Positions 14,747 through 27,614 of a DNA stretch of 32,327 nt are shown here, in pieces (positions within the stretch are counted from its first letter, which is position 1; the number at the start of each line of letters is the position of its first letter). Both the position numbers and the translations under genes were made by a program. Location: the NCBI GenBank assembly GCA_012031265.1, contig JAAUTY010000058.1, forward strand, positions 1-32,327, read 5' to 3'. Source of the DNA: Spirulinaceae cyanobacterium SM2_1_0 (lineage in GTDB: Bacteria; Cyanobacteriota; Cyanobacteriia; Cyanobacteriales; Spirulinaceae). The notes beneath the pieces were generated by a model that ran no database searches, was not told the DNA's origin, and saw only the letters and a list, made by a program, of their open reading frames with translations.

Positions 14747-15169
14747 ATGTCAAAACGCTGGTTTTGGGCCGCGCTTTTAGTGATCGTGCCGTTGGCGATC
14801 GCCCGCCCCAACTGGGCGCAAGCCGATGCCCGCAACGATTATCGGTTGATTGAGCCAGACGAGTTCAGGCAGATCTTCGGTGCAGCGTCCATTGAGCCGC
14901 GTGCGCTCGCCCATGATCTTTTCTCGGCCTTTGCTGGAGACTCGGAGGGACGCCGCTCAGAGAGCTTGGAGATTACCTACCCTGAGCCGGGTCAAGCCGT
15001 GGTCACCGTCGAGATTATCGGCCTGAGCGACGACTCCATTGCTGGCAGCCGCTACCGGGTCGAATTGCAGTACAACGACGGTAGCTGGCAGGTAGTCTGG
15101 GTAGGCACACAGACTCAGTGCTGGCCGGGGCGGGGTCATCAGAACTGGTCGAGCGCGCTCTGTAGTTAG
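14747..15169 (+). CDS. Secreted hypothetical protein with signal peptide
   Basis: 140 residues from the second ATG (14747). GGAGG at 14733-14737 is 9 bases from it but only 3 from the first ATG at 14741. The N-terminus MSKRWFWAALLVIVPLAIA is a signal peptide, with likely cleavage after AQA (about residue 26). The mature part is mixed alpha/beta with a C-terminus WPGRGHQNWSSALC. I recognise the look of a conserved cyanobacterial unknown but no function. It should act in the periplasm or thylakoid lumen or outside the cell. It follows the CDF gene by 80 bp and may be cotranscribed. Confidence 0.75.
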   Translation: MSKRWFWAALLVIVPLAIARPNWAQADARNDYRLIEPDEFRQIFGAASIEPRALAHDLFSAFAGDSEGRRSESLEITYPEPGQAVVTVEIIGLSDDSIAGSRYRVELQYNDGSWQVVWVGTQTQCWPGRGHQNWSSALCS

Positions 15170-15170
15170 T

Positions 15171-15281
15171 CTAGTACCGCTACGCGGAATTTTGAGTTCT
15201 GAGTTTTGAGTGATGAGTGCAGACAATACAGGCATCCTACGGATCCTGAATGGGGATCTCATTTCCGCCGCCTTGTACTAG
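15171..15281 (+). repeat. 111-bp dispersed repeat, copy A
   Basis: The element begins CTAGTACCGCTACGCGGAA and ends with TTCCGCCGCCTTGTACTAG, so its tips are inverted copies of CTAGTAC and GCGGAA. The inside carries TTTTGAG heptads, then a unique core. Copy B (19641-19751, inverted) is identical at 109 of 111 positions, and copy C (26346-26456) has the same length. It begins just after the stop of the secreted protein gene and ends 55 bp before the ABC ATPase start. No ORF fits, so it is a candidate non-autonomous mobile element. Confidence 0.85.
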
Positions 15282-19428: not shown

Positions 19429-19494
19429 CTAGTACTGCTACACGGAGGTTTGGGGTTTGGGGTTTGAGGTTTGGGGGGTGCATCCCGCTTTGGC
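19429..19494 (+). repeat. Divergent partial copy of the 111-bp repeat joined to an IS-end-like motif
   Basis: CTAGTACTGCTACACGGA matches the left tip of the 111-bp repeat with two changes. It continues as a TTTGGGG/TTTGAGG heptad run where the full copies have TTTTGAG heptads. It then reads GGTGCATCCCGCTTTGGC, which matches the edge of the window-end element. This is either a chimeric remnant or an older subfamily. Confidence 0.6.
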
Positions 19495-19553
19495 GTTTGG
19501 CGTTACGGTTCCCCACTCTGCGAGCAGCCACTGCGCGTCTACATCCCCCAACG

Positions 19554-19611
19554 CCTTCTCCCAAGCTGGGCGAAGGTGATCTAGAAGTCCCTCTCCCAGC
19601 TTGGGTGAGGG
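19554..19611. repeat. Pair of related hairpins
   Basis: 19554-19576 folds as CCTTC-T-CCCA-AGC-TGGG-C-GAAGG, and 19589-19611 as CCCTC-T-CCCA-GCT-TGGG-T-GAGGG. Both have a 5-bp stem, one mismatch, a 4-bp stem and a 3-base loop. One stem pair differs as T-A versus C-G on both arms. The spacer is 12 bases. Confidence 0.7.
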
Positions 19612-19640
19612 CTACGAAACCGGCTGATGTCTCCGACACA

Positions 19641-19751
19641 CTAGTACAAGGCGGCGGCAATGAGATCCCCATTCAGGAGCCGTAGGATGCCTGTATTGTC
19701 TGCACTCATCACTCAAAACTCAGAACTCAAAATTCCGCGTAGCGGTACTAG
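19641..19751 (-). repeat. 111-bp dispersed repeat, copy B
   Basis: In inverted orientation this is identical to copy A (15171-15281) at 109 of 111 positions. Both CTAGTAC tips are intact. The near identity over 4 kb distance implies recent transposition or conversion. Confidence 0.85.
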
Positions 19752-19816
19752 CGCGATCGCCAACATCTTAAATCCTCGCTCAAGTAGAATGCGCCATTTC
19801 ATGGTGTGCTCGCGGC

Positions 19817-26345: not shown

Positions 26346-26456
26346 CTAGTACGAGACGGCGTAAATGAGATGCCCATTCAAAATCCCCAGGATTCCCGGA
26401 TTGCAGGCACTCAGAACTCAAAACTCGGAACTCAAAATTCCGCGTAGCGTCACCAG
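26346..26456 (-). repeat. 111-bp dispersed repeat, copy C (divergent)
   Basis: It has the same length and orientation as copy B. The CTAGTAC left tip, the TGAGAT-CCCATTC stretch, the TTTTGAG heptads and CCGCGTAGCG are recognisable, but the inner core differs and the other tip is eroded (CACCAG for TACTAG). It stops 3 bp before the ACR3 stop codon. Confidence 0.75.
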
Positions 26457-26459
26457 CTT

Positions 26460-27614
26460 CTACTTGTAAGCGCTCACACAGCGCGGGTCGAGCAGGGTCG
26501 CTTTGTCCGGCTCGCGCGGAAACCAAAAGGCAGTGCGCTTGCAAATTTCGACCAGCATCAGCATCACGGGCACCTCGATCAGCACCCCAACGACCGTAGC
26601 TAAGGCAGCCCCGGAATTGAGACCGAAGAGGGTGACGGCTGTGGCGATCGCTACCTCAAAGTGATTGCTCGAGCCGATCAAGGCTGCTGGTGCGGCATCC
26701 TCGTAGCTGAGCTTGAGCTTCAGCGCCGCGACATAGCCGATGAGAAAAATCAAGTTGGTCTGGATGAACAGCGGCACCGCGATCAGGACAATATGCAGAG
26801 GGTTACTGACGATCAGATCGCCTTTGAACGCAAACAATAAAACGAGTGTGACCAGCATCGCCGCGATCGCAATCGGGCCCAAGTAATGGAGAAATTTCGC
26901 CTCGAACCACTCCAGCCCCTTGTGTTTCAAAATCCAGTGGCGGGTGTAAATTCCTGCTGCCAGCGGTAGCCCGACATAGATCAACACGGATAAGACAATC
27001 GTTTGCCAGGGCACGATCAAATTATTTGCCGAGAGCAGCCATTTTCCCAGCGGTGCGTAGAGGAAAAGCATCGCCAGTGAATTGACCGCCACCATCACCA
27101 AGGTGTGTCCCTGGTTGCTGTAGGACAGGTAGCCCCACATCAGCACCATCGCTGTGCAGGGAGCAATTCCCAGGAGAATCGTACCCGCAATGTAGGAGTC
27201 GGCGATCGCTACCTCCGTGCCGCGAATCATCTCAGTCCCCGAGAGCCAGGGTAGAAAAAGCTGACCAAGAAAGAACTGGGCGATCGCCACCATCGTAAAC
27301 GGCTTGATCAACCAGTTGACAACCAGTGTGAGCATGACCGGCTTCGGGGCACGCACCGCCTGCATGGCTTGCGAGAAGTCGATCTTGACCATGATCGGAT
27401 ACATCATGAAGAACAAGCAGATCGCGATCGGCAGCGAGATATTGTAGACGCTGAGCCGATCGAGGGTTTGGGCAACGCCAGGAAATAAGCGGCCGAGGCC
27501 GATACCCAGGATGATGCAGATCAACACCCAAACGGTGAGATATTTCTCGAAAAAGCTTAGCTGCCCGCCCGCTTGTACAGCAGGTGGAGACATCGAGGTC
27601 GGGCGTTGGCTCAT
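26460..27614 (-). CDS. ACR3-family arsenite efflux transporter
   Basis: 384 residues with about ten membrane helices, the typical size. Family marks are [36 protein letters not shown] with the conserved Cys153 needed for arsenite transport in characterised members, and the late helix segment [17 protein letters not shown]. It should export As(III) or Sb(III) across the cytoplasmic membrane using the proton gradient. No arsR or arsenate reductase gene adjoins it; the ArsC-superfamily gene at 17557 is 9 kb away and looks NifO-like. The 3' end is immediately followed by repeat copy C, which could affect transcript ends. Confidence 0.95.

Follow-up and report, generated by a model that had tools for sequence, protein, structure and literature searches.

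A 111-bp cyanobacterial repeat that targets CTAG is very probably a gene-less MITE moved by an IS630-type transposase

Copies of the repeat in the window and across the genome

What kind of element is the 111-bp repeat that recurs in a 32,327-nucleotide stretch of Spirulinaceae cyanobacterium SM2_1_0 (contig JAAUTY010000058.1; the whole stretch is called the window below)? A reading made from the letters alone had listed three full copies of equal length and one partial copy and had taken them for an undescribed mobile element. The three full copies were re-found exactly. Copy A lies at 15171..15281 on the plus strand and is identical to nine other copies in the genome stretches that were fetched. 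Copy B (19641..19751, minus strand) carries 2 differences, in agreement with the 109/111 identity and opposite orientation reported earlier, and stands at the CTAG of another dispersed repeat, empty copies of which occur elsewhere in the genome. Copy C (26346..26456, minus strand) carries 20 differences, and one of its tips has decayed to CTGG; it is an older copy. The partial copy was located at 19429..19476 on the plus strand; it consists of the left tip CTAGTACTGCTACACGGAG and, next to it, heptads that have diverged (GGTTTGG x4.3), and a right end was not seen for it.

Both ends of the repeat share the frame CTAGTAC-N6-GCGGAA and are thus terminal inverted repeats, as had been claimed. In copy A, N6 is CGCTAC on the left and AAGGCG on the right. 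The left tip (15171..15189, plus strand) reads CTAGTA-CCGC-TAC-GCGG-AA, that is, the target CTAG followed by a possible 4-bp stem with a 3-nt loop, and is continued by four heptads (TTTTGAG/TTCTGAG/TTTTGAG/TGATGAG; 15190..15217, plus strand). The right tip (15263..15281) reads CTAGTACAAGGCGGCGGAA on the minus strand, or CTAGTAC-AAGGCG-GCGGAA inward, and scores as the end of an IS630-type insertion sequence (IS; see below). Two listed ORFs with starts inside copies A and B run out of the element. The repeat is short, present in many copies and devoid of a transposase gene, as a MITE is. Copy A lies a few bases from the stop codon of a neighbouring 142-aa ORF without a Pfam match (15169-15171), and copy C is equally close to that of an SBF-family transporter gene (26456-26460). 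The window also holds 79 GCGATCGC sites; this is HIP1, a cyanobacterial mark, and fits a cyanobacterial host.

The search of the genome and of other cyanobacteria that the sequence-only reading had proposed was carried out. In the genome (5.03 Mb in 149 contigs), the 111-mer gave at least 43 matches (40 of 330 candidates scored), and a script counted 40 full-length copies with 0 to 3 differences in the window and 38 fetched stretches. These young copies show no difference in 10 cases, one in 11, two in 14 and three in 5; their flanks differ while their ends stay sharp. The exact tip occurs 143 times forward and 133 times in reverse (276 in all), and the backwards-pattern control gave 0 and 0; with up to one mismatch the counts were 249 and 237 (486 in all), against 5 and 1 (6 in all) for the control, which excludes a chance origin of the tips. 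At two tips per element, some 240 elements can be estimated, so that the copy number in the genome is probably a few hundred. Some contigs end no more than about 100-200 bases from a tip.

The equality of lengths held for the three window copies and proved not to be strict across the genome. In a 252-kb sample, composed of the window and eleven 20-kb stretches picked for carrying tips, 16 of 29 paired elements were 111 bp long, four were 104 bp and two 97 bp, with single instances of 90, 105, 112, 113, 114, 143 and 146 bp. The commonest lengths differ by steps of 7 bp, the size of the heptad unit, as expected if heptads are gained and lost. Ten identical copies among the 40 young ones, copy A included, suggest a recent burst of near-identical copies, in addition to older decayed ones like copy C. 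At variable sites 56, 60, 73, 85 and 94 of the young copies, all four combinations were found in 7 of 10 site pairs, a pattern that could be due to gene conversion or recombination, to several master copies or to recurrent change. Viewed from copy A (15171-15281) against the other young copies, this pattern looks as if copies exchange sequence. Left of the copy at L035 (G000:C22:7759-7792), two tips facing away from a common CTAG both bear the rare variant CTAGTACCCCTACGCGGAA and look as if one had been copied onto the other.

A codon score devised for the purpose, whose cut-off we set ourselves, placed 1 of the 40 young copies in a probable coding frame. It did so for 151 of 397 CTAG sites without a tip and for 333 of 600 random positions. 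The simplest reading of this avoidance is selection against insertions in genes. Folding of the 111-mer was modestly better than that of shuffled sequences (z of -1.76 and -2.00), which makes RNA structure a weak candidate for its function; among four relatives, the signal was stronger in three (-3.93, -3.60 and -4.76) and absent in the fourth (-0.71). A secondary role of the element, regulatory or terminator-like, is possible.

Empty sites and the duplicated target

Had the copies moved as units with sharp ends, as was first proposed, sites without them should read through. The two flanks of copy B, which belong to its host repeat (19612..19640 on the left and 19752..19781 on the right, both plus strand, part of each used as query), were joined around one CTAG. 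At least 41 matches at 12 loci were obtained, two of which (L119 and L120) are the window itself; the other ten (L121-L130) were inspected. The host repeat is filled at three places, by copy B in minus orientation in contig C66 and by plus-oriented copies in C104 and C39, and is uninterrupted at six, with a single CTAG in C147, C92, C130, C99 and C25 and with CTCG in C94. Among the inspected loci, L125 and L128 are filled; two others were left out of the count, L129, whose sequence departs at the CTAG, and L130, with similarity on one side.

With the element in place, a site reads CTAG-TAC...GTA-CTAG, a gain of 107 bp over an empty site. Each insertion duplicates TA or CTAG, and both fit equally because the palindrome hides the difference between 2 and 4 bases. 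The element measures 105 bp if TA is duplicated and 103 bp if CTAG is. Insertion in both orientations at one site, with one CTAG becoming two, is the outcome expected of a TA- or CTAG-duplicating transposon; TA rather than CTAG may be the duplicated unit.

Adjacent copies are consistent with the same rule. Five young copies (L016, L025, L030, L035 and L038) have one CTAG in common with a neighbouring tip, with 0 or 1 mismatches, and a sixth (L013) has its CTAG in common with an older copy found by BLAST. In all, 6 of the 40 young copies thus adjoin another tip or copy, from which no preference for insertion into older copies is claimed. In the tip-rich sample, 88 of 520 CTAGs carry a tip (up to 4 mismatches) on either side. 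Together with the tips of the same type on IS of relatives described below, the filled and empty sites and the adjacent copies support the proposal of a transposing unit. The repeat that hosts copy B in its interior (window positions ~19476-19790; L121-L128 and L130) is a second dispersed family, with ends like GGGAGCATCCC and GGGATGCACCC.

The class of the partner transposase

The sequence-only reading had also suggested looking for an autonomous element with the same tips. Such elements were found in other genomes, as IS of the IS630 family, and none in this assembly. The loci examined for ends were of the DDE_3 type, plus one of the DDE_Tnp_1 type. A first set of 40 transposase loci (39 DDE_3 and one DDE_Tnp_1) comprised four DDE_3 loci and the DDE_Tnp_1 locus of the genome itself, five DDE_3 loci of relative G001 and 30 from ten other genomes; it was scanned for inverted pairs starting at TA, CTAG not being favoured. 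Four of the 40 loci, in G098 and G172, were bounded by CTAGTAC-type tips. A two-sequence profile of these tip-bounded transposases (A1) then found similar proteins in 29 of 195 genomes at a threshold of E 1e-20. Among 30 A1-like loci from these 29 genomes, 16 lie between paired CTAG-type ends spaced 1.29-1.61 kb, in a scan that gave CTAG a bonus; four of the 16 (L131, L137, L150 and L160) are at places already covered by the first set. No paired ends were seen at the other 14, some of which are cut by contig ends.

The elements at L087 and L092, which have tips of the same type as the 111-mer, encode an IS630-type DDE transposase. At L087 two overlapping frames encode it, one for the HTH part and one for the DDE part; at L092 the reading is interrupted further, and the gene may be decayed. 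The L087 and L092 proteins match PF13358 (DDE_3) and PF13565 (HTH_32) over the cut-off, and also the IS630 transposase model NF033545, whose cut-off one of four reading frames passes. Of 760 records matching the partner transposase, the seven best named ones are all cyanobacterial. Five plasmid records among 15 listed were examined for ends. Such ends were present at four loci, in Calothrix sp. PCC 7716, Brasilonema octagenarum (annotated as an IS630 family transposase), Nostoc sp. C052 and Oscillatoria nigro-viridis; the Nostoc edaphicum locus had no paired ends.

How closely each tip of the 111-mer resembles IS ends was scored with a weight matrix built from 28 ends of 14 IS from other genomes, with CTAG ignored. 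On their own matrix, these training ends score 6.0-26.8. The right end of copy A reaches 20.0, and the top value among 976 non-tip CTAG sites is 6.6; for the left end the value is 0.9, which three of the 976 sites surpass. Across the 64 tip-like sites of the sample, scores go down to -16.6, with 4.9 as the median. By these scores, the right end qualifies as IS630-type, the left only loosely so. The ends shared with an autonomous element are thus found for the right end, in other genomes, and weakly for the left (0.9). A simple deletion derivative of these IS does not explain the left end, with its CCGC-NNN-GCGG hairpin and genome-specific heptads.

Within this assembly, no A1-like transposase was found at E 1e-20, and none of the four DDE_3 matches is bounded by the tips. 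Nor is any of the five DDE_3 loci of G001, which has 103 exact tips, and G012 has no DDE_3 match. The single weak DDE_Tnp_1 match in the genome lies below its cut-off and was rejected as a partner. So was the IS630-type element at L041 (1219-2039, 819-821 bp): it has CTAG ends, but its subterminal TGCTCAGTCAAG is unlike that of the MITE. Its subterminal repeats are CTAGTGCTCAGTCAAG, and an old MITE copy lies in the same locus. Tips and transposase show only a weak tendency to be found in the same genomes. Nine genomes, this one included, have at least 10 exact tips, and the transposase is present in only two of them (G134 and G172); by hand count in 195 genomes, the 45 with tips and the 29 with the transposase overlap in 10, where about 6.7 are expected. 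The missing partner may have been lost, may lie in collapsed contigs or may have a transposase that has diverged.

Taken together, these data make it very probable that the 111-bp repeat is a gene-less, nonautonomous MITE of the IS630/Tc1-mariner class that targets CTAG. Going by the tips and the IS of relatives, its mover would most likely be an IS630-family transposase. Such an enzyme, encoded elsewhere and belonging to an IS630 subgroup of DDE transposases that is read in two frames, would bind the CTAGTAC...GCGGAA tips, excise or copy the element and insert it at the TA within CTAG. The duplicated bases would be TA, with an element of 105 bp, or all of CTAG, with one of 103 bp. In a recent burst, this process would have left at least 40 near-identical copies over the older decayed ones, 39 of the 40 outside probable coding frames. 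The left hairpin and heptads may play a part as well.

Other origins were weighed against this one. Single-stranded transposition by a hairpin-recognising tyrosine (HUH) transposase would make the repeat a REPIN/REP-like or IS200/IS605-type element, with the CCGC-NNN-GCGG hairpin of the left tip as recognition structure. The length, near 110 bp, resembles that of REPINs, and in 19 of 23 paired elements (see below) the left tip could form a short hairpin whose loop varies. REPIN and IS200/IS605 elements, however, have hairpins at both ends and do not duplicate their target. Here the motif is present at the left tip and absent from the right one, the ends are terminal inverted repeats in common with DDE_3 IS elements, and insertions lie in both orientations at a CTAG that is duplicated, all of which renders this origin very unlikely. 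A DDE-type MITE of another family, IS5 or IS701, was considered too: these types also target CTAG or YTAR, and a 4-bp duplication of CTAG fits as well as one of TA. Since IS630-family elements of several genomes have matching tips, and DDE_Tnp_1 yields only one subthreshold match in this one, we give such a family very little chance.

Finally, a non-mobile repeat, perhaps regulatory or terminator-like, might have been spread by recombination or gene conversion. The four-combination pattern at variable sites could be read in this way, recurrent change or several masters fitting it also, and so could the position of copies outside probable coding frames. Sharp ends at different flanks, and host-repeat copies both filled, in either orientation, and empty, speak against such an origin, and the 111-mer folds only modestly better than shuffles. 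Such an origin is very improbable.

Known systems and the recurring left module

Insertion of IS630 is reportedly preferred at the TA in 5'-CTAG-3' (title of Tenzen and Ohtsubo, 1991), and Nezha is said to be an active cyanobacterial MITE (title of Zhou et al., 2008). Nezha may be of the same family as the 111-mer. ISY100, of the IS630 family, has a TA target that is duplicated on insertion, according to an excerpt (PMC2170065). IS630, ISY100 and their MITEs resemble the 111-mer in a duplicated target that contains TA, the inverted repeats and, for IS630, the preference for CTAG; IS630/Tc1-mariner elements have a DDE_3 transposase, and the cyanobacterial IS ends match the right tip. The 111-mer differs from IS630 and ISY100 in having no transposase, one atypical end with heptads and no partner found in the assembly. 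According to another paper, an IS630 group is one of the two recently active IS groups with the widest deployment in cyanobacteria and archaea (PMC2246112).

MITEs are known from cyanobacteria (excerpts, PMC10969869 and PMC3542288). Those of Anabaena sp. 90 measure 77-541 bp and number 147 complete or partial copies, 132 of them intergenic; their ends are shared by no IS of the genome, for which reason the authors class them as type II (PMC3542288). By this description they, too, are short, have inverted repeats and lack a partner IS in the same genome; they are unlike the IS ends of their own genome, whereas the ends of the 111-mer match IS630-type IS of other genomes. An abundant repeat tied to a transposase class and a target thus offers a testable partner for cyanobacterial MITEs listed without one. 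The first description as "undescribed" can be upheld for the tip only as far as the open-licence literature searched goes, where no description of it was found, and not for the kind, which is well known. What would be new is this MITE family, with an unusual lopsided build that recurs in related genomes. A family of such high copy number may contribute to assembly breaks.

The heptads have likenesses of their own. Mazel (1990) and Elhai (2008) reportedly treat cyanobacterial heptameric repeats (STRR) and small dispersed repeats; STRR repeats are tandem 7-bp units, as are those beside the left tip of the 111-mer. Porphyromonas gingivalis belongs to a different phylum. Its MITE reportedly contains a minisatellite (PMC4596501) and so has a tandem repeat inside, like the 111-mer, a likeness by description only. 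Excerpts further report MITEs in Thiomargarita (PMC4853749) and, in cyanobacteria and Beggiatoaceae, heptad repeats of another sequence with no known origin (PMC4679880). No link between an IS630 MITE and cyanobacterial heptads was found in the open-licence literature searched.

At E 0.001, the 111-mer matched 16 of 59 relatives (own genome counted). Full-length matches outside the genome were confined to G001 (two, 70-71%), and other relatives match mainly the heptads. The relative element in G001 is 112 bp long and has the same tip frame with a different N6. Exact tips occur in 3 of 13 genomes of the family (276 in this one, 103 in G001 and 2 in G012) and in 45 of an even sample of 195 from the order, many of the 45 with one or two tips only; the backwards control gave one match each in G032, G045, G051, G078, G102 and G127. 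Searches in the contigs of named genomes gave no match to the exact left tip with its first heptad and no relative of the window protein used as query.

Left ends were compared in 23 paired elements, copy A and 22 from other genomes; unpaired tips, L046, one subfamily repeat and nested or alternative pairings were not taken. The left end reads CTAG(T/C)AC-CGC-NNN-GCG(G/T) in 19 of the 23 and is a CCAC variant in one, and three (L100, L116 and L166) are without a hairpin-type left end. The loop and heptads vary by genome (heptads AATTAAG, AATTCAA, AGTCAAA, ATTTAGA, AATTAAA and others). Arrays resembling TTTTGAG were also seen in a Nostoc plasmid and elsewhere in the order, and no CTAGTAC tip is present in the sequence shown for the heptad arrays at L048, L050, L051, L052 and L186. 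The heptads are therefore not exclusive to the element, and their use as proof of MITE identity was ruled out.

A recurring one-sided module with changing heptads raises the question of what MITE mobility requires and bears on where some cyanobacterial heptad repeats originate. We tentatively consider it possible, if doubtful, that an ancient, asymmetric superfamily of IS630-type MITEs spans the order, its left hairpin/heptad module selected for mobility and some STRR arrays being remains of left ends. In such a superfamily, the right end would copy the IS end and the left heptad sequence would differ per genome, and the left module would provide, e.g., extra contact sites for the transposase or a structure that promotes cleavage. 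At L049 (G029), CCGCTTCGCGGAG and TTTTGAG-like heptads occur with no CTAGTAC tip; the left module may exist alone.
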